DNA from: Mycobacterium sp. NBC_00419
GTDB lineage: Bacteria; Actinomycetota; Actinomycetes; Mycobacteriales; Mycobacteriaceae
Length of the DNA: 64,000 bases
Assembly: GCF_036023875.1 (NCBI RefSeq)
Contig: NZ_CP107931.1
Coordinates: 3,720,001 to 3,784,000 of the forward strand
Reading direction: 5' to 3'
The position numbers and the translations under genes were made by a program. The notes under the pieces were generated by a model that had not been told where the DNA came from, did not search any database, and saw only the letters and a program-made list of their open reading frames with translations. The first letter of the stretch is position 1. The number at the start of each line of letters is the position of its first letter. Positions 1,836 to 35,071 of this stretch are shown piece by piece.

Positions 1836-3293
1836 TCAGGGCTTTGACTCTGCTGCCTCTTTCTCGGGCGTGGCCGATACATCAGCGGGAGTCTCGGCCG
1901 ACCCGTTCTTGTCCGATGAACCATTCAGCGTCGCGCCATCGCTGCCATAGCTGTAGTTGTAGCTATAGCTGTACGCCGTGGTGCCACGTGCGGCTGTCAT
2001 CGTAAACACCGCTCCGAGGATGGAAGCGCCGACGCCGCTGAGGTTGCGGATTGCGTGCGCGAGCTGCTCGCGCTTCGTCGATCCGAAGCGCACCATCATC
2101 AGCACTCCGTCGACACTGGCTGACAGCACGGCAGCATCTGTGACGGCGACTAGCGGGGAAGAATCCACAATGACGTAGTCGAACTTCTCGCGAAGCTCGC
2201 CCAAGATCCTTTTGGCGGTTTGGGACGCGAGCAGTTCGCTCGGATTCGGCGGAATCGCACCGGATGCAAGAACCGTCAAGCCGGGGAACTCGGTCTTCTG
2301 CAAAACATCGTCGATTTCGGCGGCGCCGCTGAGCACGGTGCTGAAACCCGCTGTGCCAACCAGATTGAGGTACTTATCCAGCATCGGTTTGCGCATATCG
2401 CCGTCGACCAGAACGACCGTGTGCCCTGCTTCGGCCAACACCAGTGCCAGGTTGATCGCCGTCGTGGACTTACCTTCATTCGGCAGCGAACTGGCGACCA
2501 GGATCACCCGGGGCGGATTGTCGACGGCGAGGAACTGCAGATTGGTTCGAAGCTTGCGGAAAGCCTCGGAAATGCCCGAACTCTCTTTGTCGAACGCGAT
2601 CGCCGCGTCCTTGCGCCGTTCTTTGTCAGCCGGGATGTTGCCGACCAGCCCGACGCCGGTGATGTCCTCGAGCGTCTCACGGTCCTTGACGCTGTTGTCC
2701 AGACGATCGCGCAGAATCGCCAGGCCCACGCCCAACAGCACACCGGCGACCAGGCCCAACGCGATGTTGCGGCTGGTCTTGGGGACGACGGGCGATTCGG
2801 GAATCGTCGCGCGCTGCTCAACGATCACCCGTGCGTCGGGTTTCCTTCCGTCGGGCGGAGTTTCGAGCTCTTTGACCATCTTCACGAACTCGTCGGACAA
2901 TGCATTGGCGATGTCGCGGGCCCGGAGGGGTGAGGCATCGAGTACCTGGAGATCGATGAGCACCGTGTCCTGCTTGGCGGATGCTGTGATCCTTTTGGTC
3001 AGTGCGGAGGGCTTCATGTCGAGGCCGAGCTTGTCGATCGTGCGTTTGGCCAGGGTCTCACCCTTGAGAAGCTGCGTGTACGACAACACCCGCTCTTGGG
3101 AGAACAGGGTGCCTTGATAGGCGTCGGACAAGGATTGACCGGCGGACGTCGAGACGAAGAGCCGTGTCGAGGCCTGGTAGAGAGGTGTGGTCAGCAGGGT
3201 GACGGTGGCCGCCGCCAACAGGGCGGCTGTCAGGGCTGCGGCGACTGTAATCCAGCGCGCTCGAAGAACTTTGATGAACTCCTGGAGATTCAT
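1836..3293 (-). CDS. Wzz/BY-kinase: polysaccharide co-polymerase fused to tyrosine autokinase (copy 1)
   Basis: A 485-residue membrane protein that should control chain length and couple export to tyrosine phosphorylation. Residues 1-200 are a Wzz domain with TM segments at about 14-34 and 176-194 enclosing an extracellular loop. Residues 240-430 are a BY-kinase: Walker A at about 268-277 (SSLPNEGKST), Walker A' at 293-301 (VVLVDGDMR), Walker B at 373-380 (YVIVDSSP). The tail has alternating tyrosines Y441, 443, 445, 447 and 449, the typical autophosphorylation cluster. M. tuberculosis is not known to have this kinase class. The ATG is preceded by GGAAGGGG. It is the last gene of a three-gene unit with the DUF4012 gene and the small secreted gene. 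Its paralogue at 28669 aligns without gaps over the first 440 residues. Confidence 0.93.
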   Translation of the reverse strand: MNLQEFIKVLRARWITVAAALTAALLAAATVTLLTTPLYQASTRLFVSTSAGQSLSDAYQGTLFSQERVLSYTQLLKGETLAKRTIDKLGLDMKPSALTKRITASAKQDTVLIDLQVLDASPLRARDIANALSDEFVKMVKELETPPDGRKPDARVIVEQRATIPESPVVPKTSRNIALGLVAGVLLGVGLAILRDRLDNSVKDRETLEDITGVGLVGNIPADKERRKDAAIAFDKESSGISEAFRKLRTNLQFLAVDNPPRVILVASSLPNEGKSTTAINLALVLAEAGHTVVLVDGDMRKPMLDKYLNLVGTAGFSTVLSGAAEIDDVLQKTEFPGLTVLASGAIPPNPSELLASQTAKRILGELREKFDYVIVDSSPLVAVTDAAVLSASVDGVLMMVRFGSTKREQLAHAIRNLSGVGASILGAVFTMTAARGTTAYSYSYNYSYGSDGATLNGSSDKNGSAETPADVSATPEKEAAESKP

Positions 3294-3441
3294 TGCGCTC
3301 CCCTTCCAATTGGCGGACTAGCGTCCCAGGCGGTTGCCCTACCTGAGTAGGAGCTTGAGCCCGAACCGAACATTCCACGGCGGCTACCTGCATTGTCGGC
3401 AGGCTGCGTGCGACGAACCCATCTTGGGTGGTGACGGACAT

Positions 3442-5283
3442 TCATTTGGAGCATTGCGGCACCGTGACTTCCGGGATGACGGTGTCGCGCAACGGCTGAA
3501 CGGGCACGCGCGGTGCACCAGCGGCGGTGGGTTCGGAGAGCCGGAACGTGATCTCCGCGGTCTTTCCGGGCGCGATGGCCACTTGACTCTCAAAGCTGGG
3601 GTGCCCGCGCTCTTTGGCGCCGAAGACACGAACCCTCTTGCCGTTGACGAGAACACTGATGACCTGGGCATCCTTGGTGGCGAGCAGGCGTACCGAGCTC
3701 AGCATCGCGCCCCTCGGGATGTTTTCTGCGAGAGCAGGAAAGAACCCCAATTTCCCGGCGACGTAATCCGGTAGTCCCGACGGATCCGAGAGTGTGTTGG
3801 TCAACCGAACCGTGACGGTCGACATCCGGTTATCTCCATCGCAACCGTCAGCGACGTACTCGATCTGTCGATTCAAGTAGTAGTCCATCTTGTTGCCGCC
3901 CAGATTGTTGATGACGACTTCCGCGTAGGGTGCTGGATCATCTGGAATCACGTGGGCCAGGGGAGTCTCTTCAAGCAGCTTCTGGTCGGCAGGTGACGAG
4001 CTCCAGACCGAGATGCGGCGCTCGCTGATCGCACGGCCCAAGGCGTCGAACAACTTGCGCGCCGACTGTACCGGCGCGCTGATCTTCTTGACTACCGCGG
4101 AAGCAACCTCCTGCAGATACTGCTTGCGCGCGGATTGATCTGTGGGAAAACGTGTGTAGACGGTCGACTCGGTCAACTCGACGACGTTGTTCTCCGCCAC
4201 CGTCTCGCCGTCCGGCATCACGACAGGCCCGGTGGCCTCGAGGATATAGCTGAGTGCGACGGGGTCGATGGCGACAACACCGTCGACTTTCATTCCCGAC
4301 TGTTGTTCCCACATCGACTGCCAGATCTGGGCTGCGTATGGGAAGTGGGAACTCTGGTTGCTGTTACGGAAATCGGTAGTCGGATGGGTGAACCCGTACT
4401 GCTGGTCGAAGTCTGGGCCAAGAGACATCGGTGTGAAGGGCTTATCGAGCTCGGTGTTGCGGCCCAGCGTGTCCACTGTGGGCTTGCCATTGTCGAATCG
4501 CAGAATTCCAAATCCGCCGAGGAGCCCCCCGGTGCCTCGGGCCTCGGCATTGGTTTGGAATCCCATGAAGTAGGTGCGGGGGCCGTCGGCACCCATGAGC
4601 GCCGGTGCTACACGCGCCGCGACAGCGGTGTTGCCCACCAGTTGGGAGATTTCGGCAGTCTGCGCTTGTAGTTTCGTCCGGGCTTCACCCAGCGCCGAAA
4701 CATAGTGCGGATCCGCAATCGCTTGTGCCTCAGCGCTAATCCGCGCTGCGTTTGCGGCGATCTTGGCCAGAATCGGCGCTTCGTTGCGAAGTGCCTGTAC
4801 GTCGAGTCGGCCGTCGGCGAGCAGTTGCTTCGGCGCCACGCTCGTGCCGGCATCCGCGGTGGGTTTCAACACGTTGGCCGCCAGTCCCAGCACCACATCG
4901 GTGATCTGTTGGCCGGTCTCGAAAGGGCTGCCCAACCACGGCACCGCGGAAGCGATGTTCCAGGGGAGGGAGTGCGCCGCGTCCCGGGCGGCCTGCGCGT
5001 GAGACTGCGCATCAGCTGCAAACCGTGACGCATTGGCCGTATCACCCTGCAGCAGTGCATCTTTGCTCTGCTGCGCAGCGCTGCGCGCCTGGTCGAGGTG
5101 GGTCTTGGCTGCCTGCGCTTGGAAACCGAGCCAGCAGCCGAACGCGATGAGCACGACGAGGATCCCAAGACCCGCCCATGCAACCTTGCGGCTCCTGAAC
5201 CAGGGCTGCTCATCGGCGTCGAGCAAAGTCGTGTCGCTATCGTTCGAGTCGCTACTGGACCGATGCCGTGAAAAGAGACCCAC
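3442..5283 (-). CDS. DUF4012 domain protein (copy 1)
   Basis: A 613-residue protein anchored by one N-terminal TM helix (about 34-54, after a basic stretch), with the rest predicted outside the membrane. A helical, alanine-rich region (about 55-210, repeated AQAA patterns) precedes the DUF4012 core, where YFMGFQTNAEARGTGGLLGG and FRNSNQSSHFPYAAQIW are the most distinctive stretches. No catalytic function is established for the family; in Actinobacteria it often sits in exopolysaccharide clusters. Start is GTG (GTGGGTCT), the same as in the paralogue at 31997, with GGGG about 10 bases upstream. It lies between the small secreted gene and the Wzz/BY-kinase gene, so it may act in assembly or release of the polymer (inference). 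Confidence 0.9.
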   Translation of the reverse strand: MGLFSRHRSSSDSNDSDTTLLDADEQPWFRSRKVAWAGLGILVVLIAFGCWLGFQAQAAKTHLDQARSAAQQSKDALLQGDTANASRFAADAQSHAQAARDAAHSLPWNIASAVPWLGSPFETGQQITDVVLGLAANVLKPTADAGTSVAPKQLLADGRLDVQALRNEAPILAKIAANAARISAEAQAIADPHYVSALGEARTKLQAQTAEISQLVGNTAVAARVAPALMGADGPRTYFMGFQTNAEARGTGGLLGGFGILRFDNGKPTVDTLGRNTELDKPFTPMSLGPDFDQQYGFTHPTTDFRNSNQSSHFPYAAQIWQSMWEQQSGMKVDGVVAIDPVALSYILEATGPVVMPDGETVAENNVVELTESTVYTRFPTDQSARKQYLQEVASAVVKKISAPVQSARKLFDALGRAISERRISVWSSSPADQKLLEETPLAHVIPDDPAPYAEVVINNLGGNKMDYYLNRQIEYVADGCDGDNRMSTVTVRLTNTLSDPSGLPDYVAGKLGFFPALAENIPRGAMLSSVRLLATKDAQVISVLVNGKRVRVFGAKERGHPSFESQVAIAPGKTAEITFRLSEPTAAGAPRVPVQPLRDTVIPEVTVPQCSK

Positions 5284-5419
5284 TCAGTACATTCCCCGTG
5301 CTCCCGTGCGGTCTACGCTGGACGACAGCAGACAGCAGTCGCGATAGCTGACTCTGAAGAACCGAATCTCCAGCGGGCGCGGGTGGCGCCAACTGGCGAA
5401 TGATTCCGGTGAGATTGAG

Positions 5420-5863
5420 CTAGCCGGCAGTTTGGTAGGGGCCGGCATGGAACGCCAGGGCGATGGAGGTGCCGAAGGCACTGACACCGTCGCTCACGTT
5501 GCTGAAGAAGTCACCGATCGGACCGCCGACAGTTGTGGCCACCAGCTTCAACAGCTGAGCGGTGCCGTCCACGAGGACATAGGCGATGTTTCCGATGAAG
5601 GTTACTGTTCCGCGGACGAAGGTCTGCACCCCGGCGACGACCGATTCAACGAGATAGCAGCCCACATCTCCCGGGGTGCACACGGTCGTCGCGGACGCCG
5701 CAGCACTGGGAATGACGACCGAACTGATAGCTCCCGAGACCGAGTCGCCGATTCCCGCTGCGTGAGCGACCGTCGGCGTGATCACGGCAGCGGTGGCCAG
5801 CACCACGGCCGCAGTCCCCACCTGGAACTTGGTAGCGAAATTGGCTGCGACTGCAGTAGTCAT
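5420..5863 (-). CDS. Small secreted protein of unknown function (copy 1 of module)
   Basis: A 147-residue protein with a signal peptide ending in TVAHAAG at about 36. The mature part has two cysteines in CTPGDVGCYL, which could form a disulphide, then two hydrophobic/amphipathic stretches (FVRGTVTFIGNIAYVLVDGTAQLL and the GPIGDFFSNVSDGVSAFG region). I do not recognise a family. The paralogue at 32120 keeps the cysteine pair, the hydrophobic stretches and the GPY ending, so these are likely functional. It is the first gene of the three-gene unit. GGGGG sits about 6 bases before the ATG. A role in crossing or attaching to the mycomembrane is only a guess from position. Confidence 0.8.
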   Translation of the reverse strand: MTTAVAANFATKFQVGTAAVVLATAAVITPTVAHAAGIGDSVSGAISSVVIPSAAASATTVCTPGDVGCYLVESVVAGVQTFVRGTVTFIGNIAYVLVDGTAQLLKLVATTVGGPIGDFFSNVSDGVSAFGTSIALAFHAGPYQTAG

Positions 5864-5922
5864 TTGAGACCCCCAACTATCGGCCGTGCAAAAACATCTG
5901 GATAAGGGCTTGAGCTGGTGAG

Positions 5923-6342: not shown

Positions 6343-7329
6343 CTACCCGGTCGGTACTTGGATGGTCGCGAGCAACGCGCGATGGTCGGAGCCCGGAACC
6401 TCGACGGTGTGGATCGCCGACGCCGTGCCATTGCGGGTCAGGATGTGATCGATGGTGATCAGGGGTGGATACCACCGGTTCGACGGGAACGTCGGCGAGA
6501 AGCCCGCACCGAGCTGGTCGACGGCGTCGCTGTATCCGTCGGTCAGCAGATCGCGGAACTGGCGCATGTCAGGTGTGCTGTTGTAGTCACCGCCGATGAT
6601 GACTGACCCTGGGCCCGCTGCTCGGGCGAAGTTGTCCAATTGTGCCTTGGCTCCGGCCATTCCGCTGCGCCACTGTGGCACGGTGTTCGTGTCGCCGGCA
6701 ACGGGTGAGTAGACGTGGATGCTGGCGAGGATGGGTTCTGTTGCGAGGCCAGGGATCTGGAGCCGTACGGCAGGCATTGATACCCCCCGGTGTCGTGGCG
6801 GCGAAAGGGGCATAAGTGGATAGCGACTCCATATGCCGATTCCCCCGGCACCGGGAGCGGGGTTCAGTAGCGAGTAGGGGAATGTCGTGTCGATTCCGGC
6901 TTGCGTGAAGCGTTGTACCGCCTCTGAAGTCAACTCTGAGACGGTGATCACGTCGGCGCTGTCCTCAGCCAGCCCAACGAGGCACGAGGGGTCAGCCCGT
7001 CCGTAGCGAAGGTTCGACGAGAGGACCCGTAGGTTGTGGTGCTCGTTCACAGAGTTCGGTAGATGGCTCAGGTAGTACCAGGAGGCCTGTACGGTCAGAC
7101 TCCCCGCTACGACCGTCACGGCGAGGACCGAAAGAAGCCTGCGCCTGCAGGACGCAGCCACGACCAAGCCCGCAACCGCCGCGAGCGTCAGGTACGGCGA
7201 ACCGTTGGCGAGGACTAGATCAAGGACGTTGGAGATCGGCCTGGCCCGCGCAACTACCCCGGCGACGGCAAGAGCGAGTAGTCCGACCGTTAACACGGCC
7301 AGCAATGCCATGCGCACTCTTCTCGACAT
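6343..7329 (-). CDS. Membrane-anchored endonuclease/exonuclease/phosphatase (EEP) family protein
   Basis: A 328-residue protein with three N-terminal TM segments (about 8-26, 36-60, 66-85), then an EEP domain. The metal and catalytic positions are visible in order: N in SSNLRYG, E in TVSELTSE, H in SIHVYSP, D and N in GGDYNS, D-H in TIDHIL, and D-H in GSDHRALL. In this topology the domain would face outside. EEP proteins cleave phosphodiester or phosphomonoester bonds in nucleic acids or lipids; the substrate here is unknown. Its place in a polysaccharide locus suggests a lipid-phosphate or glycan-phosphate target, but that is inference. A degenerate second copy of the C-terminus lies just upstream (7401-7508). 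Confidence 0.85.
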   Translation of the reverse strand: MSRRVRMALLAVLTVGLLALAVAGVVARARPISNVLDLVLANGSPYLTLAAVAGLVVAASCRRRLLSVLAVTVVAGSLTVQASWYYLSHLPNSVNEHHNLRVLSSNLRYGRADPSCLVGLAEDSADVITVSELTSEAVQRFTQAGIDTTFPYSLLNPAPGAGGIGIWSRYPLMPLSPPRHRGVSMPAVRLQIPGLATEPILASIHVYSPVAGDTNTVPQWRSGMAGAKAQLDNFARAAGPGSVIIGGDYNSTPDMRQFRDLLTDGYSDAVDQLGAGFSPTFPSNRWYPPLITIDHILTRNGTASAIHTVEVPGSDHRALLATIQVPTG

Positions 7330-7625: not shown

Positions 7626-9116
7626 TCAGTACGCGCCGCCGTGACCGAACACCGCCTTGAGTGTCTTAACGGAGATCAGGAGGTCGGCGATCATTGACCA
7701 GTTCTCCACGTAGAACAGATCGAGCCGTACCGAATCCTCCCAAGACAGGTCTGAGCGTCCGCTCACCTGCCACAGACCGGTGATGCCGGGGCGTACTAGG
7801 AGGCGGCGCTTTGCGTAGTCGTCATACGACTTGACCTCACTTCGAAGTGAAGGCCGAGGCCCGACGACGCTCATGTCGCGTTTGAGAACATTGAGGAACT
7901 GCGGCAGCTCATCGAGACTGTACTTGCGCAAGAATCGGCCAACGGGCGTAACGCGCGGGTCGGTGCGGATCTTGAACAGGACGCCGCCTCCGCTTTCGTT
8001 CATGTCGATGACCTCGTCGAGCATCTGATCCGCCCCGTCAACCATCGTGCGGAACTTGATCATCTCGAACGGCTGACCATTGAGCCCGATACGTTCCTGC
8101 CGGTAGAAGATCGGCCCCCTGCTGGTCAACTTGACGGCGAGGGCGACAGCGGCCAGGAGTGGGACTCCACAGAACAAAACCAAGCTGGAGAACAGGATGT
8201 CGAAGGTCCGCTTCTGAAAGCGCTTTGCACCGTGATACTGGGGCTTCTCGACGTGGATTAGCGGTAGGCCTGCAACAGGTCGAATCTGCAGGCGGGGGCC
8301 CGCAACATCAACTACGCCAGGCGAGACGAGGAGGTCGACATTGAGCTTCTCCAGATCCCAGGAGAGATCTCGCAGCCCGCGACCGTCCAGTCGTTCGGTA
8401 GCCGTTACAGCTACCGCCTGACTCTTTGTCGCGGTCACAGCGCCAACGATGTTGGACTCATCTCCGAAGGTGGGAATGGAGCCGACACCCGGAACCGTGA
8501 GTTCTGTGCGCCCGTTCAGGCCCGGAATGCACGCGCCCACCACCTCGTATTCGGACCATGGCTCTCGCGCTAGCGACCGGGCGAAATCGCGCACAGCCGA
8601 GGAGTTGCCGACCACCAGGACGCGGGTGATGTAGCGGCCATACTTTTGCCGTGCCTTGACGACGATTCGCCGCATCACCCAGCGGGACCCGCCAAGAAAT
8701 GCGATGCCGGTGGGCAGCGCGATCATCAGATAGCCGCGAGCTATTTCCAATTTCAACAGCATCGACACAATTGCCACACCGCCGAACACTGCAAGTGTCG
8801 CAATCCAAACGCGGCGGTATTCCTCAGCGCCGGAGCCCAATATGCGCGGTGATCGAGAGTGATTAATTGAAAGCGCCAACAACCAACTGGTCGCGATAGC
8901 TAGTGACACGATGATGTAGTTCGGGTACACATATTTGTGTTCGGTACTAGTTAACCCGCCGAACCGCAGCCACTGAGCGAGCCCAACTGCGAGTATGACA
9001 CTAAGTGAATCGATTACCAGCAGCCGGCGAGCGTACGTCTGCTGCCATTCCGAAGTTGCCTTCGGGACTCGATAGATGCTTGCTGAAGACTCCAGCTGCC
9101 GAAATGCCAGCGTCAT
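7626..9116 (-). CDS. WcaJ-like polyprenyl-phosphate sugar phosphotransferase (initiating enzyme)
   Basis: A 496-residue integral membrane enzyme that should move a sugar-1-phosphate onto undecaprenyl/decaprenyl phosphate and so start each repeat unit. The N-terminal half has about four TM helices and a Rossmann-like domain (VLVVGNSSAVRDFARSL). A further membrane segment near 310-330 leads into the catalytic sugar-transferase domain, with KRTFDILFS, FYRQERIG, KFRTM, a DELPQ motif and RPGITGLWQVSGR. The length is normal for this family. GGGGG lies 5 bases before the ATG. In a Wzx/Wzy locus this is the priming transferase; the sugar (Glc, Gal or other) cannot be told. Confidence 0.93.
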   Translation of the reverse strand: MTLAFRQLESSASIYRVPKATSEWQQTYARRLLVIDSLSVILAVGLAQWLRFGGLTSTEHKYVYPNYIIVSLAIATSWLLALSINHSRSPRILGSGAEEYRRVWIATLAVFGGVAIVSMLLKLEIARGYLMIALPTGIAFLGGSRWVMRRIVVKARQKYGRYITRVLVVGNSSAVRDFARSLAREPWSEYEVVGACIPGLNGRTELTVPGVGSIPTFGDESNIVGAVTATKSQAVAVTATERLDGRGLRDLSWDLEKLNVDLLVSPGVVDVAGPRLQIRPVAGLPLIHVEKPQYHGAKRFQKRTFDILFSSLVLFCGVPLLAAVALAVKLTSRGPIFYRQERIGLNGQPFEMIKFRTMVDGADQMLDEVIDMNESGGGVLFKIRTDPRVTPVGRFLRKYSLDELPQFLNVLKRDMSVVGPRPSLRSEVKSYDDYAKRRLLVRPGITGLWQVSGRSDLSWEDSVRLDLFYVENWSMIADLLISVKTLKAVFGHGGAY

Positions 9117-9403: not shown

Positions 9404-9940
9404 CTAATCGGGTGCTGAGGCCGACATCCGTTGGCACAGGAGGAGGATCGGTGGCAGCAGATCGGCGATTTGTGAGCCGACTGTCGCAAAAAACTCAGGT
9501 CCTTGACCTATCGGGTCTGGAATATCGGGAAGCGCGTACCCGGTCAGGTGCGGCCGGAGCGCGGTCAGCTCTGAGATGTTCCGGGGATCATGGTCGAGCG
9601 CGATGCGTGCGGCTTCACTGAGGGTGAAGGTCCGGTGAAGCCGGTGCGGCGCGATTTCTAGGACAGCGTCGCGATGTGCCCTGGTCATCGCGATCACCAG
9701 ATCGACTTCCGATGCGATTCGCGGTGTTAGTCGTCGCGCGGCGAAGTTGCTTGCGTCGCCCCCGAGGTCTTCAAGCACCCGAGCCGCGAGCGGATGAATC
9801 GGCTGGGCGACTACTGCGCGGGTTCCGGCGCTGGATGTGCTGAAATCTGGGATCTGCAGCGCAGCGCCATAGGCAGCGGCAAGGCGCTCGGCCGTGGGGG
9901 ACCGACAGATGTTCCCGGTACACACGAACAACAAGTGCAC
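9404..9940 (-). CDS. Low-molecular-weight protein tyrosine phosphatase (Wzb-like)
   Basis: A 178-residue enzyme with the P-loop CTGNICRS at residues 7-14 (nucleophile Cys7, Arg13) and the acid-loop DPIG at about 142. The open frame reaches to 10603, but family homology begins at a GTG (9938-9940) with AAGGA six bases upstream. In capsule loci this phosphatase removes phosphate from the tyrosine tail of the BY-kinase, and two such kinases occur in this window. M. tuberculosis PtpA is the same fold but is a secreted virulence factor; the context here points to capsule control. It diverges from the methyltransferase gene at 10220. Confidence 0.9.
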   Translation of the reverse strand: MHLLFVCTGNICRSPTAERLAAAYGAALQIPDFSTSSAGTRAVVAQPIHPLAARVLEDLGGDASNFAARRLTPRIASEVDLVIAMTRAHRDAVLEIAPHRLHRTFTLSEAARIALDHDPRNISELTALRPHLTGYALPDIPDPIGQGPEFFATVGSQIADLLPPILLLCQRMSASAPD

Positions 9941-10119
9941 AGCAGATCCTTGGTCGAAATGGTGGGTGCGGTGACGCCTGGTTGATGGTCTCAAACGCAG
10001 TCGAACTGCGCTTTCAGCGGTCCGTCTCTGCACGCACGACGGCGAGCACGAAACCGTACCGCTTATGCAACCCGGGGACAACGCGTCGCGATGCGAACTC
10101 TCCCGACCGCAGGGCGCAG

Positions 10120-10128
10120 TGGTATAAC
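10120..10128 (+). promoter_or_regulatory. Candidate extended -10 promoter for the methyltransferase gene
   Basis: TGG followed by TATAAC fits an extended -10 element. No good -35 is seen. It would give a leader of about 85 bases before the ATG at 10220. Confidence 0.4.
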
Positions 10129-10219
10129 CTGACCGAGGGGCGGGGTGGGTCTCGCGATCGATTGCCGTTGGCAGGCCCGGGCACCCGGGTTCTTGGAGAG
10201 AATCGGGCGGGGCAGTTGA

Positions 10220-13024: not shown

Positions 13025-13088
13025 GTTGTTACCCCCCAGAGAAGATCGTCGCCGCAGCGCGGTGCAGTCGTATGCGAGCCGCGACCCC

Positions 13089-19163: not shown

Positions 19164-19278
19164 CACTGATCCCCCCAAACCCCGTTCAACAATGCCCAGC
19201 TTTGAGTCAGCCTACCCATTCGGACACCGCTCTGACCCGGAGATCGGGAGGAAATGATCAGGCGCCTCAAGCTCATCG

Positions 19279-21970: not shown

Positions 21971-22093
21971 CGCTAACCTTCGCGGTCGTGGTGTCCGGCG
22001 GGTGCCATCGCACCGTGTGACTCCCGGTGTTCAACCCGTTGCGGCGCCCTGTTCTTCGCCCGCCGAAGGGAATGGACCTTTGGAAACGCTGAC

Positions 22094-24462: not shown

Positions 24463-24969
24463 TCACGGCCGGCGGGTGCGCCATTCGAACTTCGCCTCAT
24501 TTCGATGCCAATGGGCATCGGTGTCACAAAGGACTTTTGCCGGGCACCCGGCAACGACGGTGTCCGCGGGCACATCTTTGGTTACCACGGAGCCTGAACC
24601 TACTATCGCGCCGGGTCCAATCGTCACGCCGGGAAGAATCATCGAACCAATTCCAATAAATGCTTGATCCCCGATCTCGATAGGCGCACTCCTGAGAAGT
24701 TCCTTCTCGCTAACTCCAAGGCGTCTTTCGGCCACGCGGTCCATGCTGAAATCGTGAGTGAGGAGCTTGACATCGAGGCTGATTACACATCGGTCCCCGA
24801 TGGTGATCCCACCAGATCGGTCCCAATACACGTTAGGGCTTATCCAGAGCGGCAGGCCTCTTACCTTCACTCCGTAAGCCATGAGAATTCTGCGAGCTAG
24901 CCGCCGGTAGAGCTGCTGGTTGAAGCGATCAACAATTGCAGCCAGCGATAGTGCATACTTTGGCCCCAT
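24463..24969 (-). CDS. Left-handed beta-helix (hexapeptide repeat) acyltransferase
   Basis: A 168-residue WcaF/CatB-like protein. Hexapeptide repeats run through ITIGDRCVISLDVKLLTHD, IEIGDQAFIGIGSMILPGV and TIGPGAIVGSGSVVTKD, ending in the usual VVAGCPAKV. The likely catalytic histidine is in LLTHDF. Such enzymes O- or N-acetylate sugars as trimers in the cytoplasm. In this locus it could acetylate an amino sugar (for example a product of the aminotransferase at 13089) or a glycan hydroxyl. GGAGGGA precedes the ATG. It converges on the dehydrogenase gene. Confidence 0.87.
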   Translation of the reverse strand: MGPKYALSLAAIVDRFNQQLYRRLARRILMAYGVKVRGLPLWISPNVYWDRSGGITIGDRCVISLDVKLLTHDFSMDRVAERRLGVSEKELLRSAPIEIGDQAFIGIGSMILPGVTIGPGAIVGSGSVVTKDVPADTVVAGCPAKVLCDTDAHWHRNEAKFEWRTRRP

Positions 24970-25001
24970 ATTGTTTCCCTCCGCAATTAAACTCGTGCAC
25001 G

Positions 25002-26078
25002 CTACCTGCTCGTCCTACCATCGATCACTCGTGTAAAAGCCTTCAGAAATTCTTCGACAACCACATCCGGCGTCATTCCCGAAAGAACGCGCAGAGCATG
25101 GGCATATAGATTAGCGTCCGGAGGAGCAGCCCACGCCTTTGCGATGACCGCGCCAGCTTTCTCTGGGGATGCTTCAAGCGGGACGTAGAACGGGTAGCTG
25201 TCGCCGAGGAGCGCCCTGTGTTGCGGAATATCCGACACAACCGCTGGAAGGCCAGCGGCAACTGCTTCCATAATGACGTTAGGCATGCCCTCATGCTCGC
25301 TCAGGGACAACAGCAGACGCGATTGCGACATCAGCTGTGGAACATCATTTCGGAAACCTAACAATACGGCTCGTCCGCCCACACCCCTGGTGAGCATAGC
25401 TTCGAGGATCGCTGGTTCGTCCGGACCTTGACCTGCCACGACGAGCTGGGCATGCGGGTTCTCGTCGGCGAAGGCAGCAAAAGCCGCAGCCATGGCGCCG
25501 ACATTCTTCGGCGGTGCGAGCCGGCCAACGTACAGGCACTCAATCGAATCCATCCGCCTTGGTGTCGAAGCGGCTGAATCTGGTTGTCGCAGAGGGATGT
25601 TCGAAATTTGCAGTACCGGAACCGAAGGCGCTAGCAACTCCCACATCTCCCTGCCCTGACGTGAGTTCGCGACTATAGCGTCCGCCTTGCGGCCCAAACG
25701 CTTCCGCAGGTTGTAGATGGCCTCATCGGGGTAGGCCGACCCGCGCTCGGTCATGATCCACGGCACTCCTCGAACTACGCGAGTCGCAACGTAGGACCAG
25801 ATGTCGGCGCCCTGGAGCCACGAGATCAGGACATCTGGTCGCACCCGAATGAGGGTTCGGATCACGAAGGCAAGCAACAGCGGATTGCGGAAGCTGGCAA
25901 CGGCAATCCGATGGAGATGGAGTCCCGAGACATCGAGGTCGTGGTCATGTTCCCCGCGACCCGCCAGGATCAAATGGACTTCGACACCACGGATTTTCTG
26001 CAGTTCGTTGAGCAGGGCGATGCATTGCCGCTGGGCTCCGCCATCACCGAGACTCGTGATGAAGAAGCAAACTCGCAC
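25002..26078 (-). CDS. GT4 glycosyltransferase, paralogue of 20837
   Basis: A 358-residue GT-B enzyme, starting GTG as VRVCFFITSLGDGGAQRQC, with GGGGAG upstream. It shares most motifs with the protein at 20837: CLYVGRLAPPKNVGAMAAAF, LVVAGQGPDEP, LSEHEGMPNVIMEAVAAG, AVVSDIPQHRALLGD. It lacks the long C-terminal basic tail of the paralogue. It probably adds a related sugar in the same repeat unit. It lies 32 bases beyond the acyltransferase gene and reads in the same direction. Confidence 0.9.
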   Translation of the reverse strand: MRVCFFITSLGDGGAQRQCIALLNELQKIRGVEVHLILAGRGEHDHDLDVSGLHLHRIAVASFRNPLLLAFVIRTLIRVRPDVLISWLQGADIWSYVATRVVRGVPWIMTERGSAYPDEAIYNLRKRLGRKADAIVANSRQGREMWELLAPSVPVLQISNIPLRQPDSAASTPRRMDSIECLYVGRLAPPKNVGAMAAAFAAFADENPHAQLVVAGQGPDEPAILEAMLTRGVGGRAVLLGFRNDVPQLMSQSRLLLSLSEHEGMPNVIMEAVAAGLPAVVSDIPQHRALLGDSYPFYVPLEASPEKAGAVIAKAWAAPPDANLYAHALRVLSGMTPDVVVEEFLKAFTRVIDGRTSR

Positions 26079-26272: not shown

Positions 26273-27715
26273 TCACAACGCGCGGTTCGCTGGTTCGACA
26301 TACGGTCGGTCGCGCGTTCGGACGGCGCGGGCCGATACCCGGCTGTGCTTGGTCGGGGCTGTATCGATCGGCTTGCTTCCATCATGCAGCAACACGCCCA
26401 ACAGCACACCAACCACGAGAACTGGTTGTCGCATCCAAAACAGGTCGACCATGGAGAACGTGACGAGGACGAAGATTGTCAAAACCAGTCGTGCGTAGGA
26501 GAGCAGGAGCGGCTGCGAGCGGCCTACCCTCAGAGCGAGTCGATAGGTGAAGATGATCATGACCGCGATCAAGACCGCATACAGAACTCCAAACCTCATG
26601 GCCCATTCCAGCCAGGAGTTCTGGCTGACGCTGCGGTAGCTCCCCTGTGCGATCCGATAGGCTGCGAAATCGGGACCCCTCCCGATAAGGGGTGACTCCA
26701 CAAGGTCCGAATAGTACTGGGTGACAACAGATTTTCTCGCCACCGCCGATTCATCCGTACCGCTGGCCAGTGTGCTGATGGACGCCATCCGCGCGCTGAC
26801 GGTGGCCGCGAGGTCCGCTCGCGAACTAGTGATCAGCTGTATGGCAAACGCGCTCGAGACAACTACCAGAACAGGAATCAAGGGTGCGAGCAACGCTCGC
26901 TTGCGGTTGCCCGAGGAAGCTTCGCCGTGAACTCGCAAGATGTTGCGTACGTACCATGCCAGGACCAGGGCCACAAGGATCAGGGATGTGCGCGACCCCG
27001 TGATGACAACACCGGCCAGTGAACCCGTCGTGGCGATCGTCTGCAGGGCATAACCGCTGGTGAGGAATTCCCTGGTGCACGCGAGACTCGCAATGCACAG
27101 CACGAGCGATAGCGCCGCTTCGTTTGGATGCGGATAGAACCCCAGAGTCCGTTCCGCCACAAACGAGGCTGCGAACGGATTTGAGCTGTAGAACAGGATC
27201 TTGCGTAGGAACGCGTAGTCGAACCAGTTCACAAAGAAGCCGAACCACGTCGCCACGATGCATGCCAGGAAGAACGGTGTCGACAGTCTTGAACCCCATC
27301 GTGCCCACAGCACAACAGCCACCAGCAGCAGCAGCGGGAACAGCACGGCGAAAGTGATCCAATAGACCAGCCTGGCAGTTGTGACGGTGTTGTCGATTAG
27401 CTGCAACGCCATCACCACGGCCGGCGCCACGCCCAACGTGCATGCCCAGCCCGCGAGAACCCCCGAATGCAGCTCGGCGAGTGTCTTGTTGCGGGCCACG
27501 AGGTAGAAAACAAAGAAGAGCGAGAATGCGATATTGGCCTGGCGGGAATTCGTGAACCCCGCGATGTAGGTGAGTGGAAGGTACAGGTTGGTGGCCTGCA
27601 GGAATACTGCTGCCAACGCCAAGCCATCCAATGACACCACACGGAAGCTCGTCACGGCTGGCGCTACCCGATTCGGTTCGTGCAGCATGCCACGACGAAC
27701 AGTTGCGCCCATCAT
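26273..27715 (-). CDS. Wzy-like O-antigen/polysaccharide polymerase
   Basis: A protein of about 480 residues with 10-12 TM helices. Features expected of Wzy/WaaL-type proteins are a large extracytoplasmic loop (between about 290 and 390, with SPLIGRGPDFAAYRIA and SQNSWLEWAMRFG) and GFYPHPNEAALSLVLC followed by TGSRTSLILV. It should polymerise flipped repeat units outside the membrane. The start is set at the ATG pair 27710-27715, just after GAGGGGAGGGGA; the open frame extends 11 codons further. It is the only polymerase candidate in the window. Confidence 0.85.
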   Translation of the reverse strand: MMGATVRRGMLHEPNRVAPAVTSFRVVSLDGLALAAVFLQATNLYLPLTYIAGFTNSRQANIAFSLFFVFYLVARNKTLAELHSGVLAGWACTLGVAPAVVMALQLIDNTVTTARLVYWITFAVLFPLLLLVAVVLWARWGSRLSTPFFLACIVATWFGFFVNWFDYAFLRKILFYSSNPFAASFVAERTLGFYPHPNEAALSLVLCIASLACTREFLTSGYALQTIATTGSLAGVVITGSRTSLILVALVLAWYVRNILRVHGEASSGNRKRALLAPLIPVLVVVSSAFAIQLITSSRADLAATVSARMASISTLASGTDESAVARKSVVTQYYSDLVESPLIGRGPDFAAYRIAQGSYRSVSQNSWLEWAMRFGVLYAVLIAVMIIFTYRLALRVGRSQPLLLSYARLVLTIFVLVTFSMVDLFWMRQPVLVVGVLLGVLLHDGSKPIDTAPTKHSRVSARAVRTRDRPYVEPANRAL

Positions 27716-27773
27716 TCCCCTCCCCTCGAGCGAGGCCTTGCCTCGCAATTGCCGCGCCTCAGCGGCGGCGAAT

Positions 27774-28583
27774 CTATGCAGGCCTGGCTGGCTTGACGGT
27801 GGTCATGGACATCACTCGTGTGGTGCGATACGCCCATGCCGCCAGCCGCCGGACCGGTGCCGGCAGTGGAGGATTCCCTAGCTTGAGGAGCACCCGAGCC
27901 TCGGATGCTTCCCGGTAATCCACTGACACTCCCACGCTCTCGAACACGCGTCGGATCTCGGAAGGGTGACGGTAGAACGTTTCGGTGTCGCTGTATTGGG
28001 CAAAGATCGCCGTCCGCTCGGCCAGCGGCCATTCAGTGAAGTACGGGGCCGCTCGGCCAGTCCTTAGCATGAATCTGATTGCGCTCCGCCGTGTGTGCCC
28101 CTTCGGCAGCCAGTGCACAACCGGCGCGAGGAGGTGTGGCTCGGTGAAGATCCATTTCGCAGGAAACACATGCAAGCCGATTCCGCCTGGCCGTGTGGTG
28201 CGTGCGATTTCTGTCGCAAGCTGTGGCAAGTCGGCGACGTGTTCGAAGACCTGGTCGGAGATCACAATGTCGAAGTGGTTGTCAGGGTAGGGGTAGCGGT
28301 CGCTGTCTAGCACGGCCAGCCGGTCCGCTCCGAGATAGGCGCGACCATTCGCGATGTAGTCGGGGGATACGTCTATTCCATAGGCATCGAAACCCTGGTC
28401 CAGGAGCCAGGCGACCGTGCCGCCTTTCCCGCATCCCACGTCGAGCACCCGAACCGAGGCCCGCTCACGACCGGAGGACACTCCTGACAACCAGTCAGCG
28501 ATCGGCACCCCGGGGTGGCTTGGTTCGGTCAGTGGGCTCAGCTTGGCATGGCCGACATGATCGTTGAACGCCGGCAGTGCCAT
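27774..28583 (-). CDS. Type 11 SAM-dependent methyltransferase
   Basis: A 269-residue protein with SAM loop VLDVGCGKGGTVAWLL, strand-2 acid YGIDVSP, then YPDNHFDIVISDQVFEHVAD and a GGIGLHVFPAKW loop. This is typical of methyltransferases in surface-glycan clusters. The start ATG (28581-28583) has GGAG six bases upstream; a TTG four codons earlier is less likely. It stands between the polymerase gene and module copy 2, all on the minus strand. The acceptor is unknown. Confidence 0.85.
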   Translation of the reverse strand: MALPAFNDHVGHAKLSPLTEPSHPGVPIADWLSGVSSGRERASVRVLDVGCGKGGTVAWLLDQGFDAYGIDVSPDYIANGRAYLGADRLAVLDSDRYPYPDNHFDIVISDQVFEHVADLPQLATEIARTTRPGGIGLHVFPAKWIFTEPHLLAPVVHWLPKGHTRRSAIRFMLRTGRAAPYFTEWPLAERTAIFAQYSDTETFYRHPSEIRRVFESVGVSVDYREASEARVLLKLGNPPLPAPVRRLAAWAYRTTRVMSMTTVKPARPA

Positions 28584-28668
28584 CAGTGACTCCAACCCTC
28601 ATGCGCATCCAGTTGCGACGTCAATAGGCTTGGTGCAGTTGCGTTCTCTGGCACGGTTACATCACCAA

Positions 28669-30150
28669 CTACTTCTCGGGCGTCTGCCCAGACTCCACTT
28701 GTTCTGTGATTCGGAATTCGGCATCGTCAAGCGTGTCCGGGATAGTGGGAGCGGGACGGGCTTTCGGAGCTTGCGCGGGCTTACTCTCGTTGTAGCTCTG
28801 GCTATAGCTGTAGCTATAGCTGTACCTGTACGAAGCGCTTCCACGTGTCGGAATCATGGTCAGTACTGAACCGAGCAGCGTTGCGCCGACATCGGTGAGG
28901 ATCCCGATGGCGTGTGCGAGCTGTTCACGCTTGGTCTCTCCGAATCGCGAGACAATGAGCGCACCGTCGGCATTCGCTGCCAGGACCGCTCCATCGGTGA
29001 CAGCGAGCAGCGGAGACGAGTCCACGATGACGTAGTCGAACTGACCGCGCAGTTCGTTCAGCAATTTCTTGGCTGCCATGGAGCCCAACAGCTCGCTCGG
29101 ATTCGGCGGGATTGCCCCTGCCGCAAGGACGGACAATTGTGGACACTGCGTCTTCTGTATCACTTCGTCCACGGACGCTGCGCCACTGAGGACCGTCGAG
29201 AACCCGACTTGACCGACCAGATCGAGGTACTTCGCCAGGCTTGGTCGTCGCATGTCACCGTCAACGAGCAGGACGTTGTGCTCAGCTTCGGCAAGCGCAA
29301 GCGCAATATTGATCGCAGTGGTGCTCTTGCCCTCGTTCGGAGATGGGCTCGTGATGACGATCAGCCGTGGCGGGTTGTCTACCGCGAGGAACTGTAAGTT
29401 GGTACGGAGCTTACGAAATGCCTCGGCCGTTCCGGAGTTATCGGTAGGGAAGGATATGGCCGGCGTCTTGCGGAACTCCTTGTCCGCCGGAATATAGCCA
29501 ACAACACCGGTATTGGTGATCTCTTCCAAGGTCTCCTGGCTCTTCACCGTATTGTCGAGCAGATCGCGAACAACCGCGATGCCGATGCCCAGCAGGCCGC
29601 CTAAGACCAGTCCGATCGCGACGTTCCGAACTGGATTCGGGATCACTGGTGCTTTGGGAATCGACGCGCGCTGCTCGACAACCACACGGGCGTCCGGTTG
29701 TGCCCCAGGCTTCGGAGTTTCAAGTTCGTTCACCAATCCCACAAACTCGTCAGACAGCGCGTTGGCGATATCCCTTGCGCGAACAGCTGATTCGTCGAGA
29801 ACATCGACATCAATGAGGACTGTGCTCGGCTTTACCGATGCCGTCACCTTCGCCTGGAGCGCGTCGGCGCTCATAGCGAGGTCGAGTTTGTCTACGGTGC
29901 GCTGAGCCAGCGTTTCACCCTTTATCAGCTCGGCGTAGGACAGAACTCGCTCTTGTGAAAACAGGTTGCCCTGGTACACGTCTTGGACCGAGCCGCCGGA
30001 AGTGGTGGATACGAAGAGCCGAGTAGAAGCCTCATAGAGGGGAGTGGTGAGCAGGGTGTAGATGACGGCGGCCGACACCAGCGCCAGTGTTGTCACGGTG
30101 ATCGTGACCCACCGAGCTCTCAGCAGCCTGGCGAATTCCCGTAGATTCAA
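28669..30150 (-). CDS. Wzz/BY-kinase: co-polymerase fused to tyrosine autokinase (copy 2)
   Basis: A 493-residue paralogue of the protein at 1836. TM segments at about 14-34 and 178-195, Walker A at 268-277 (TSPSPNEGKST), Walker A' at 293-301 (VLLVDGDMR), Walker B at 373-380. The C-terminal tyrosines are Y441, 443, 445, 447, 449 and 453 (copy 1 has five), followed by a longer proline-rich tail. The start is TTG, chosen because it matches the MNLxEF start of copy 1 and has GGGGGG four bases before it. It ends the second three-gene module. Confidence 0.93.
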   Translation of the reverse strand: MNLREFARLLRARWVTITVTTLALVSAAVIYTLLTTPLYEASTRLFVSTTSGGSVQDVYQGNLFSQERVLSYAELIKGETLAQRTVDKLDLAMSADALQAKVTASVKPSTVLIDVDVLDESAVRARDIANALSDEFVGLVNELETPKPGAQPDARVVVEQRASIPKAPVIPNPVRNVAIGLVLGGLLGIGIAVVRDLLDNTVKSQETLEEITNTGVVGYIPADKEFRKTPAISFPTDNSGTAEAFRKLRTNLQFLAVDNPPRLIVITSPSPNEGKSTTAINIALALAEAEHNVLLVDGDMRRPSLAKYLDLVGQVGFSTVLSGAASVDEVIQKTQCPQLSVLAAGAIPPNPSELLGSMAAKKLLNELRGQFDYVIVDSSPLLAVTDGAVLAANADGALIVSRFGETKREQLAHAIGILTDVGATLLGSVLTMIPTRGSASYRYSYSYSYSQSYNESKPAQAPKARPAPTIPDTLDDAEFRITEQVESGQTPEK

Positions 30151-30197
30151 GATGCCCCCCTAACGGCTTTCGTGCCCGTGCTTGAGATGTCCGTGGG

Positions 30198-31997
30198 CTA
30201 TCGAGTGCATGTCGGCACCGAGACCTTCGGAGTTACGTTGCCCATCAAAGGCTGAACCGGAACCTGTGCTTCGCCCGGGGAAGTTGGTTCGGAGAGCCGG
30301 AACACCAATTCGGCAGTCTTTCCGGGCGCGATCGCCACCTGGGCTTCAAAGCTTGGATGGTTGCGCTCCGTCGCTCCAAACACTCGGATTCTCTTCCCAT
30401 TGACGACAACACTGATTACCTGCGCACCCTTGGTTGCGAGAAGGCGGACCGATGTCAGCATCGAGCCCCTCGGGATGTTCTCCGCGAGACTAGGAAAGAA
30501 GCCCAGCCGCCCGGCGACATAATCCGGCAGCGGCGCGGGATCCGAGAGGGTATTCGTCAACCGAACTGTCACAGTAGACATTCGGGTATCGCCGTCGCAC
30601 CCGTCGGCGACGTACTCAATCTGTCGTTCCAGGTAGTAGTCCATCTTGTTCCCACCCAGATTGTTGATGACAACTTCTGCGTATGGGGCCGGATCCTCCG
30701 AAATCGCATTGGCCAGTGAAGTTTTCTCCAGAAGTTCCTGGTCGGCTGGTAACGCGCTCCAGACCGAGACTCGTCGCTCTTTGACTGCTCGTCCAAGCGC
30801 GTCGAGCAACGTCCGCGGGGACTCGACCGGCTCCGTAATCTTCTTGACCACTTCAGAAGCAATATCCTGCAGATACTGCTTGCGCGCTGTCTGATCCTCG
30901 GGGAACCGGGTGTACACGGTTGACTCGGTCAACTCGACGACGTTGTCTTTGGTCACCGTCTCGCCGTCTGGCATCGTTATCGGCCCCGTTGCGCCGAGGA
31001 TATAGCTCAGGGCGATCGGATCGATCGCGATGACGCCGTCGACGTTCATTCCCGACTGTTGTGCCCACATCGACTTCCAGATCTGCGCCGCGTAGGGGAA
31101 ATGCGAGCTCTGATTGCTGTTGCGGAAATCAGTTGTCGGATGGGTGAACCCGTACTCCTGATCGAATTCAGGGCCGAGTGTGGTGGGTGTGAACCGCTTG
31201 TTGAGTTCACTGTTGGCCCCCAACGTGTCCACGCTCGGCTTGCCGTTGTCGAAACGAAGAATCGCGAACCCCCCGAGCAGACCTCCAGTCCCTCGGGCTT
31301 CGGCGTTCGTCTGAAAGCCCATGAAGTAGGTGCGTGGTCCGTCGGCGCCCATCATCGACGGGGCCAGCTGCGCGGCCAAGGCTGTGTTGTCCATCAGCCG
31401 GGCGATATCCGACGTTTGCTTCTGTAGTTGTGACCGCGCTTCGCCGATCGCGGACAGATAACCCGGCTCTGGAATCTCCATCGCGTCAGTGTTGATTCGA
31501 GCGGCGGAAGCGGCGATCTTGGCCAGCGCCGGCCCTTCCTTGCGTAATGCCGCTACGTCAAGCCGGCCGTCAGCAAGCAGCTGCGTTGGCGCGAGAACTG
31601 TGCCGGCATCTGCGGTGGGCCTCAACACGTCGGTCGTCAAGCCGAGCACAACGTTCGATATCTGTTGACCGGTTCTAAACGGGCTGCCCAACCACGGCAC
31701 GGCAGAAGCGATGTTCCACGGTAGGGAGTAGGTCGCATCGCGAGCTGCCTGGGCGTGCGACTGCGCGTCGGCCGCGAAACGCGACGCGTCCGCGGTGTTT
31801 CCCTGCAGTAGGGCATCTTTGGCCTGTTGGGCGCTACCGCGTGCCTGTTCGAGGTTAGTCTTCGCCGCTTGCGCGCGGAAGCCGAGCCATGCACCGAAGC
31901 CGATCAGGACGACGAGCACTACGAGCCCCGCCCAAGCAGCATTGCGGCGCCTCATGCGGCGCCGCTCGTCGTCGTCTTCTTCGTCGCTCAGACCCAC
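30198..31997 (-). CDS. DUF4012 domain protein (copy 2)
   Basis: A 599-residue paralogue of the protein at 3442. It has a shorter acidic/basic N-terminus, one TM helix (about 20-40), then the same helical alanine-rich region and DUF4012 core (YFMGFQTNAEARGTGGLLGG; DPAPYAEVVINNLGGNKMDY). Start is GTG, as in copy 1, with GGGGG upstream. Cysteines in VADGCDGD and at the C-terminus (VPTCTR against VPQCSK) are conserved between the copies and could pair outside the cell. Function is unknown. Confidence 0.9.
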   Translation of the reverse strand: MGLSDEEDDDERRRMRRRNAAWAGLVVLVVLIGFGAWLGFRAQAAKTNLEQARGSAQQAKDALLQGNTADASRFAADAQSHAQAARDATYSLPWNIASAVPWLGSPFRTGQQISNVVLGLTTDVLRPTADAGTVLAPTQLLADGRLDVAALRKEGPALAKIAASAARINTDAMEIPEPGYLSAIGEARSQLQKQTSDIARLMDNTALAAQLAPSMMGADGPRTYFMGFQTNAEARGTGGLLGGFAILRFDNGKPSVDTLGANSELNKRFTPTTLGPEFDQEYGFTHPTTDFRNSNQSSHFPYAAQIWKSMWAQQSGMNVDGVIAIDPIALSYILGATGPITMPDGETVTKDNVVELTESTVYTRFPEDQTARKQYLQDIASEVVKKITEPVESPRTLLDALGRAVKERRVSVWSALPADQELLEKTSLANAISEDPAPYAEVVINNLGGNKMDYYLERQIEYVADGCDGDTRMSTVTVRLTNTLSDPAPLPDYVAGRLGFFPSLAENIPRGSMLTSVRLLATKGAQVISVVVNGKRIRVFGATERNHPSFEAQVAIAPGKTAELVFRLSEPTSPGEAQVPVQPLMGNVTPKVSVPTCTR

Positions 31998-32119
31998 TCA
32001 GTAATCCCCCGTGCTCTGATGCGGGCTTTCCTAGGGTGGAAGCCACACAGCTGGCAAATGTGGAACAACCCGCCAGCTGCCGGTCGGCATCAGCTGACGA
32101 GTTGTTTCCCTGAATTGGG

Positions 32120-32611
32120 TTATGCGCCGGTGAGATACGGTCCGACGTGGAACGTCTGGGCGATGTTGGTGGCGAAGGCGCTGACTCCGTCGCCGACATT
32201 CGTGAAGAAGTCGCCCACCGGGCCGGGGAGAATGTTCCCTACCGCCTTGAGGAGCTCGCCAGTTGCCGCCACGAAGACATAGGCGACAGTTCCGACGTAA
32301 ACGACCACGCCTCGGACGATGGCCTGGGTACCGGCGACGAGTCCCTCGACCGTGTAGCAGCCCAGCTTGAAATTGGCTGTGGTGCATGGATCGGTGACGA
32401 CAGACGCCGACGCGTTGGCGGAGTTACCCGGCACGATTACCGGATTTACGACGAGCGATGCGGCGCCGCCGATGTTCTCGGCGAAAGGTGCGAGGCTTGG
32501 CCCCGCGTGAGCGACCACTGGTGTGAGCGTGGCCGCCGCAGCGATTACTAGTGCTGCGGTGCTGATTTGCAACCTCTTGGTTCCGAACTGAACCACGGTA
32601 GCTGTGGACAT
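32120..32611 (-). CDS. Small secreted protein of unknown function (copy 2 of module)
   Basis: A 163-residue paralogue of the protein at 5420. The signal peptide ends near VVAHAGP (about 36). Mature features shared with copy 1 are a cysteine pair (CTTANFKLGCY), a VEGLVAGTQAIVRG-type hydrophobic stretch, GPVGDFFTNVGDGVSAF and a GPY ending. Copy 2 has about 16 extra residues between the signal and the first cysteine. It is the first gene of the second module. GGGGG-TC-GGGG lies just before the ATG. Confidence 0.8.
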   Translation of the reverse strand: MSTATVVQFGTKRLQISTAALVIAAAATLTPVVAHAGPSLAPFAENIGGAASLVVNPVIVPGNSANASASVVTDPCTTANFKLGCYTVEGLVAGTQAIVRGVVVYVGTVAYVFVAATGELLKAVGNILPGPVGDFFTNVGDGVSAFATNIAQTFHVGPYLTGA

Positions 32612-35068: not shown

Positions 35069-35071
35069 GCT

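Follow-up and report, generated by a model that had tools for sequence, protein, structure and literature searches.

The window analysed here is a stretch of 64,000 nucleotides from Mycobacterium sp. NBC_00419 (contig NZ_CP107931.1, positions 3,720,001 to 3,784,000), a Mycolicibacterium-type genome, in which two adjacent, tandem Wzx/Wzy exopolysaccharide (EPS) loci lie, each headed by a three-gene module encoding a small secreted protein (ss), a DUF4012 protein, and a fused Wzz/BY-kinase. Each module stands beside its own Wzx/Wzy cluster with its own priming transferase, the existence of the two clusters being well supported. Within the module, the tight unit is the pair of ss and DUF4012, and the kinase partly travels with the cargo genes of the cluster. 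It is judged about an even chance that the complete picture holds, namely two loci that would make two polymers, with DUF4012 handing polymer to an exported protein.

Module A (1836–5863) and module B (28669–32611) were confirmed as the same three genes occurring twice in one order, all six on the minus strand, as the first-pass annotation had stated. The small secreted proteins are encoded by ssA (5420–5863; 147 amino acids, with a GPY motif near the C terminus) and by ssB (32120–32611; 163 amino acids, recognized by alignment with ssA), which share 50% identity across 161 alignment columns and have no Pfam or NCBIfam match. The DUF4012 genes, dufA (3442–5283; 613 amino acids; PF13196, E-value 3e-46) and dufB (30198–31997; 599 amino acids; PF13196, 4e-46), encode proteins 78% identical over 579 residues without gaps and are the only two DUF4012 genes found by a search of the host genome. 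The kinases, kinA (1836–3293; 485 amino acids; PF02706 and PF13614) and kinB (28669–30150; 493 amino acids; identified by Pfam, NCBIfam, and alignment with kinA), are 67% identical; their alignment is gapless as previously claimed, over 437 rather than 440 residues. Wzz, AAA_31, and DUF4012 all exceed their Pfam cut-offs in the module proteins, with PF02706 scoring 40 (kinA) and 43 (kinB) against a cut-off of 25.5 and TIGR01007 scoring 177 and 172.5 bits against 108. Both kinases retain a PNEGKST P-loop (by alignment), a DGDMR motif, and a C-terminal tyrosine cluster (by script). A third, distant Wzz/BY-kinase, 34% identical to kinB, is encoded at another site of the host genome (G000:C1:4750536–4751945).

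Read along the minus strand, the window presents ssB-dufB-kinB, then cluster B, then ssA-dufA-kinA. Cluster B runs in the same direction from a methyltransferase through a wzy-like gene, glycosyltransferases, a wzx-like gene, a low-molecular-weight (LMW) tyrosine phosphatase, and a priming transferase to an Exo_endo_phos protein, with gmd, fcl, a UDP-sugar dehydrogenase, and an acyltransferase open reading frame (ORF) on the plus strand. The wzx-like flippase (19279–20748, minus strand) matches PF13440 with an E-value of 4e-6 and 26.9 bits against a cut-off of 23; the wzy-like polymerase (26273–27748, minus strand) matches PF04932 (Wzy_C) at 4e-7 with 30.4 bits, slightly under the cut-off of 31.7; and the priming polyprenyl glycosylphosphotransferase (7626–9116, minus strand) matches PF02397 at 1e-67 and TIGR03025 above its cut-off. 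Cluster A is seen in the window as a glycosyltransferase at its near end (659–1828, plus strand; domain search), the remainder lying to the left of window position 1 (stretch L119). The 20 kb to the left of the window were retrieved and searched for domains, which revealed a glycosyltransferase, a pyruvyl transferase, wzx2 (Polysacc_synt_3, 3e-60), wzy2 (Wzy_C, 7e-12), a GT4 gene, an epimerase, and another priming transferase (Bac_transf, 5e-65). A flippase, a polymerase, and a priming transferase, which together mark a Wzx/Wzy-dependent locus, are thus found in both clusters.

Because each cluster is equipped with a separate set of wzx-like, wzy-like, and priming transferase genes, modules A and B most likely serve two different polymers. 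Two polymers had been one of the explanations offered in the first-pass annotation, and it is favoured by the set beside each module, on the basis of position: strands are mixed in both clusters, and the cluster that each module serves is assigned from its place. The other explanations offered there, that both modules act on a single polymer, either by forming hetero-oligomers or by providing two settings of chain length, would agree with the modules being close paralogs in one chromosomal region and with the single LMW phosphatase seen, in cluster B, no match to which was found in the left 20 kb. They are nevertheless unsupported and appear very improbable, given two sets of wzx-like, wzy-like, and priming genes, one per module. 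Most genomes with DUF4012 also have a single module: in a survey of 396 genomes of the genus, in which only three candidates were scored per genome, DUF4012 was detected at an E-value of 1e-30 in 125, only nine of which have two full-length copies.

Comparison with a sister genome (G265), in which both modules are present at the same places, showed that much of the gene content between them has been exchanged. Seven genes at 32772–40159 are 90–97% identical between host and sister, ssB is 93% and dufB 87% identical; kinB falls to 64%, the phosphatase to 58%, and Exo_endo_phos to 70%, and at the other site ssA (88%), dufA (93%), and kinA (90%) are again close. Across the 70 kb compared, no counterpart was found in G265 for the wzx, the wzy, and several further genes of cluster B; counterparts exist for gmd (84%), fcl, a methyltransferase, and two glycosyltransferases (62–72%). 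The corresponding values for cluster A are 60% for wzx2, 52% for wzy2, and 96% for the priming transferase. Synonymous divergence (dS) is 0.25–0.38 in the flanks, 0.33 in ssB, 0.71 in dufB, 1.48 in kinB, and 1.10 in Exo_endo_phos, then 0.30 in ssA, 0.28 in dufA, and 0.46 in kinA. Nucleotide identity within dufB is 0.84–0.92 up to about codon 350 and 0.71–0.81 beyond, and a recombination breakpoint lies inside dufB at about that codon. The other breakpoint is between 6273 and 6343, next to ssA, and therefore approximately 25 kb were exchanged. The kinase at the B site of G265 has changed along with the cargo and kinA has not, which also speaks against both modules acting on one polymer.

The position of these breakpoints, inside dufB and beside ssA, would suit a second module retained mainly because like modules at each end would serve as recombination arms for exchange of cargo cassettes. 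This explanation is considered improbable, since the module genes are under purifying selection (ratio of nonsynonymous to synonymous divergence, dN/dS, host versus G265) and the single-module locus of a relative, Mycobacterium sp. M26, likewise carries different cargo. Nor do A and B show traces of gene conversion: dS between the copies is above 1 in both host and G265, and therefore the modules do not convert each other. In the M26 genome, a single module and a single cluster are bordered by the same flanks (87–95% identity for genes on the hsl side, 95–99% for three genes on the left side), in the order hsl, ss-duf-kinase, cargo, phosphatase, priming transferase, Exo_endo_phos; relative to it, the second module and cluster of the window are placed between Exo_endo_phos and the left flank. 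A DUF4012 tree, built by a quick method with SH-aLRT support, places the module A protein with the DL592 protein (100) and the module B protein separately with that of M26 (86, modest), with single copies of other species between them. A recent duplication within this genome was accordingly rejected. The shared gene order and strand are what a recent, redundant tandem duplication without functional meaning would leave, but this is largely refuted and scarcely credible, as A and B do not group in the tree, both are present in G265, and dS between them is so high.

The conservation of the module was examined in 198 sampled genomes of the genus. An ss gene is found directly upstream (within 1.5 kb, same strand) of 58 of the 63 DUF4012 copies, a count not independent of the ss profile, which was built from loci of the same genus; a kinase lies within 2 kb downstream in 49 of 63, and both neighbours are present in 46. 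These counts used 63 of 71 DUF4012 rows, eight partial rows being omitted, 75 kinase rows of at least 47% identity, and 77 ss rows down to an E-value of 2.2e-5, with 16 weaker ss rows omitted, one of which (G172) is beside a DUF4012 copy. Thirteen of the 77 ss hits have no DUF4012 gene directly downstream; of these, four have one at a distance of up to 8 kb, and another four come from genomes that lack DUF4012. Kinases 47–55% identical to kinB in the sampled genomes adjoin DUF4012 in 0 of 17 cases. An accidental unit is rejected by this co-occurrence, and the conserved neighbourhood proposed in the first-pass annotation is borne out. The test suggested there, whether the genes co-evolve, gave good agreement for ss and DUF4012 and partial agreement for the kinase. 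Over 62 loci having all three genes, distances correlate (Mantel) at r 0.68 for DUF4012 and ss, 0.42 for DUF4012 and kinase, and 0.24 for kinase and ss (p 0.0005 for each); these values were computed without a species tree and therefore include shared ancestry. For 50 of 62 loci, the locus closest by ss also ranks among the five closest by DUF4012, compared with 30 of 62 for the kinase. The weaker agreement of the kinase fits joint exchange of kinase and cargo, so that the earlier picture of a duplicated three-gene unit stands for the duplication and not for equal membership.

Among the nine genomes with two full-length copies, five (G000, G265, G067, G315, and G413) carry both copies on a single contig and in the same orientation, no more than about 65 kb apart. 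Relatives of dufB in named genomes (80 loci) are mostly mycobacterial, for example from Mycobacterium pinniadriaticum, Mycobacterium sp. M26, and Mycolicibacterium sphagni, the exceptions being one Rhodococcus and a few differently labelled metagenome bins. Three mycobacterial-type loci (L018, L035, and L036) come from assemblies labelled Planctomycetota, Acidobacteria, and Verrucomicrobia, labels that are probably binning contamination. A DUF4012 remnant (L074, 15779–16083) lies between a full DUF4012 gene and its kinase, and similar short fragments occur in several genomes; they may be what is left of second copies since lost. Near one DUF4012 gene, two or three ss genes in tandem or close together were seen in G037 (L167) and G096 (L168), where the ss genes read differ in their middle, and multiple ss genes were also noted in G034, G187, G079, G085, and G197. 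One further ss gene (L166; G160:C12:148770–149192), which shares its EPS region with priming transferases, gmd, and fcl, belongs to a genome without a DUF4012 match and is possibly part of a decaying locus.

The ss genes are upstream of DUF4012 in 77 of the 80 dufB-related loci; in L046, L077, and L082 there is no ss upstream, or an unrelated ORF only. BLAST searches with ssA and ssB gave matches confined to near relatives, and Pfam gave no consistent family for 60 ss rows, leaving a "haemophore" label on one homologue (P0179) unconfirmed. Entropy is 1.51 bits in the conserved signal region, 2.50 in the variable middle, and 1.43 at the conserved end (60 rows). GPY is found within the last 45 residues in 60 of 77 sequences and the broader [GASND][PAGS]Y in 73, the remaining four ending in PPY or GCY; ssA ends in GPYQTAG and ssB in GPYLTGA, neither with a sortase anchor signal at its C terminus. 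Compared with G265, dN/dS is 0.11 for ssB and 0.24 for ssA, and the ss proteins are therefore constrained. For the host's third ss-like match, at 726218, the likeness to ss was read as confined to the signal region.

An exported neighbour of DUF4012 is also common beyond this genus. DUF4012 was found in 102 of 197 sampled Actinomycetes genomes, and 70 loci from other genera of the class were chosen by hand, mostly one per genus and up to four from one genome. An anchored ORF, with a signal stretch and an LPxTG- or LAxTG-type motif on the same strand, adjoins DUF4012 in 38 of the 70 (16 directly upstream, 22 directly downstream; 20 of 33 sampled families), signal peptides and anchors being called by simple script rules and not by a trained predictor. 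One locus (L164) was lost from the upstream count through the length limit, and another (L155) was gained through a wider position limit. Anchored ORFs elsewhere in the same loci numbered eight. Controls gave none in 11 LCP loci (37 kb, a small control), three in reversed sequences, five in 1,490 kb of the 80 dufB-related loci, and four in 27 kinase loci (any such ORF, either strand). DUF4012 is thus shown statistically to be paired with an exported protein, which is ss in this genus and a sortase-type anchored protein in about half of the sampled loci elsewhere. A scan covering 37 of the 38 loci found that 23 of the 38 anchored ORFs have a Tyr-Pro motif close to where the mature chain begins, and none of ten anchored ORFs scanned was above a Pfam cut-off. 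Sortase genes were found in 24 of 24 genomes of other families and in 1 of 37 genomes of the host genus, the host alone, whose sortase-family match is at G000:C1:4379925–4380380 (E-value 1e-14). The exported neighbour is thus frequent in either setting, with a mode of anchoring that depends on lineage.

The AlphaFold2 model of dufA (pLDDT 81) predicts a helix at residues 28–78, a helical region to about 229, a domain at about 228–440 with LCP matches, and a C-terminal beta domain. By prediction, DUF4012 would be a membrane-anchored, extracytoplasmic protein whose central domain has an LCP-like fold. Its invariant residues are E247, R249, G252, G253, and D340, and R386, a candidate for the second catalytic arginine (R266 of LcpA) on the long helix, is present in 45 of 45 rows and 9 of 12 distant rows. 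The "unknown parts" of the first-pass annotation have therefore become partly legible, as a predicted LCP-like protein often encoded, in other genera, beside an exported sortase-type protein.

These features suggest how such a locus might operate. In Wzx/Wzy systems, the priming transferase and glycosyltransferases build the repeat unit, Wzx flips it, Wzy polymerizes it, and the Wzz/BY-kinase with the LMW phosphatase sets its length. Judging from its fold, DUF4012 may bind the lipid-pyrophosphate-linked polymer made under Wzz/kinase control; it would then pass the finished polymer to a dedicated exported partner, which would hold it at the cell surface. We infer the latter step from the gene pairing and from Actinomyces oris, in which LcpA glycosylates GspA (PMC6381275). 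What these loci share with that pair is adjacency to an exported protein whose acceptor role is putative, and sortase signals of that kind were seen only in the other genera, not in ssA or ssB. A more specific form, tentative and rather unlikely in its entirety, is that DUF4012 represents a second class of LCP-fold glycopolymer ligases, not yet named, whose separate active site would comprise the invariant residues above and which, throughout the Actinomycetes, would join Wzy-made EPS to the exported protein encoded next to it, each cluster having its own ligase-acceptor pair. The partner would be wall-anchored where sortases exist, often with the Tyr-Pro motif early in the mature chain, and replaced by the fast-changing ss in sortase-poor mycobacteria, and the near-constant Pro-Tyr near the ss C terminus would be a recognition or attachment site.

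Several findings weigh against transfer of polymer by an LCP-like DUF4012 to ss. Glycosylation of the exported protein is putative, and 32 of the 70 loci in other genera have no adjacent anchored protein by the script detector. Module A and the plus-strand genes wzx2 and wzy2 have opposite orientations, so that module A heads cluster A by position and not as a single operon. The ss structure model is poor (pLDDT 52.5), too poor for a fold search, and Foldseek gave no match below an E-value of 0.001 for DUF4012. Sequence proof of LCP homology, sought by Pfam, hhalign, and a PDB search, was not obtained: dufA and dufB match DUF4012 only, and not PF03816, at 0.001; PF03816 is absent among the matches listed (best 25 of 37 families) for 45 DUF4012 rows at an E-value of 10; hhalign matched only 20 columns of membrane helix with full-length alignments, reached an E-value of 0.013 (probability 3.4%, 47 columns) with domain alignments, and gave nothing in global mode; and the DUF4012 profile retrieved only titin chains (0.6–0.9) from PDB sequences. 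Column 275, aligned by eye with the catalytic R149 of LcpA, holds R in dufA but A in dufB; R stands there in 6 of the 45 rows and in none of 12 distant rows, so that DUF4012 is taken to lack an R149-like arginine.

As no Wza domain was detected, an export role for ss is the main rival. DUF4012 would then be a periplasmic adaptor, and ss, inserted in the mycomembrane or acting as an escort, would carry the polymer over the outer lipid layer in place of Wza, with no covalent attachment. The Wza-type domain PF02563 was detected in none of 41 genomes, among them that of the host, against 4 of 14 controls, and the ss type in the window is moderately hydrophobic with a long helical hairpin predicted at low confidence; mycolic-acid bacteria do possess small helical pores, of the PorA/PorH kind. 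This alternative is possible, if doubtful: the exported neighbour of DUF4012 in many families outside the genus, often with wall-anchor signals, fits a surface protein and not a pore, and the middle of ss, with 2.50 bits against 1.51 in the signal region, is highly variable for a conserved pore. The handover of polymer by DUF4012 to a surface-held partner remains the preferred reading.

The other genes of cluster B were assigned as follows. The Exo/endonuclease/phosphatase-fold protein that ends the cluster is at 6343–7329 (minus strand; PF03372, 8e-20). The LMW tyrosine phosphatase ORF, with a Wzb-like role, spans 9404–10603 (minus strand; 399 amino acids), and its domain (PF01451, 1e-21) covers residues 225–330, so the real start is probably internal. 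By domain search, a glycosyltransferase, an FkbM methyltransferase, and a DegT aminotransferase ORF occupy 11190–15083 (minus strand), gmd and fcl (GDP-mannose dehydratase and epimerase) 15731–17793 (plus strand), a glycosyltransferase 17817–19178 (minus strand), a glycosyltransferase and an NAD-dependent epimerase 20837–23023 (minus strand), and a hexapeptide acyltransferase and a glycosyltransferase 24463–26078 (minus strand). The UDP-sugar dehydrogenase is at 23057–24427 (plus strand; PF03721/PF00984/PF03720) and the methyltransferase at 27774–28595 (minus strand; PF08241). In the right third of the window, 42528–63779 holds several very long ORFs on both strands, of up to 1395 amino acids.

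The term DUF4012 is very rare in the literature searched, occurring in three of 5.39 million papers. It is mentioned in a study of protein families of the candidate phyla radiation that quotes a Bifidobacterium locus (PMC6744442) and in a biofilm transcriptome (PMC7917626); the available text of these papers, and of a description of the Bifidobacterium longum 105-A EPS locus (PMC5412050), gives no DUF4012 fold or partner, and the available text on Actinoplanes EPS clusters (PMC13390465) has no mention of DUF4012. The LCP family has been reviewed (PMC7831098). Among the matches listed, no title concerned the combination of LCP and LPxTG in EPS loci, or mycobacterial Wzx/Wzy loci, for which the question is how Wzy-type polysaccharides would be held or exported in the absence of Wza. 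DUF4012 is common in Actinomycetes yet without known function, and a predicted LCP-like fold together with a genetic partner makes a testable enzyme-acceptor pair, for which a two-cluster locus with natural cargo exchange between sister species offers a ready comparison.

Four known systems are comparable. The Gram-positive cps module consists of the LCP protein CpsA, the phosphatase CpsB, the Wzz protein CpsC, and the BY-kinase CpsD. As in that module, a Wzx/Wzy locus is headed by genes for an LCP-like protein, Wzz, and BY-kinase side by side, and cluster B includes a tyrosine phosphatase; unlike it, Wzz and kinase are fused, the LCP-like part is a DUF4012 protein with other invariant residues, and an exported small protein is added. 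The Gram-negative group 1 capsule system, Wza-Wzb-Wzc, shares the fused, Wzc-like Wzz/BY-kinase and the LMW phosphatase, whereas here no Wza domain was found in the 41 genomes and DUF4012 and ss are present instead. With LcpA-GspA (PMC6381275), there is no shared R149-like arginine, the partner in the window has no LPxTG, and glycosylation is putative, but in both cases the gene of an LCP-fold enzyme (predicted for DUF4012) is linked to that of an exported protein, with sortase-type anchors on the neighbours in other genera. The EPS locus of B. longum 105-A, in the text available of PMC5412050, annotates its DUF4012 protein only as "Auxiliary protein for envelope protein", proposing no fold or partner, and has the order priming transferase–DUF4012–wzz, so that there, too, DUF4012 lies between a priming transferase and wzz within an EPS cluster.
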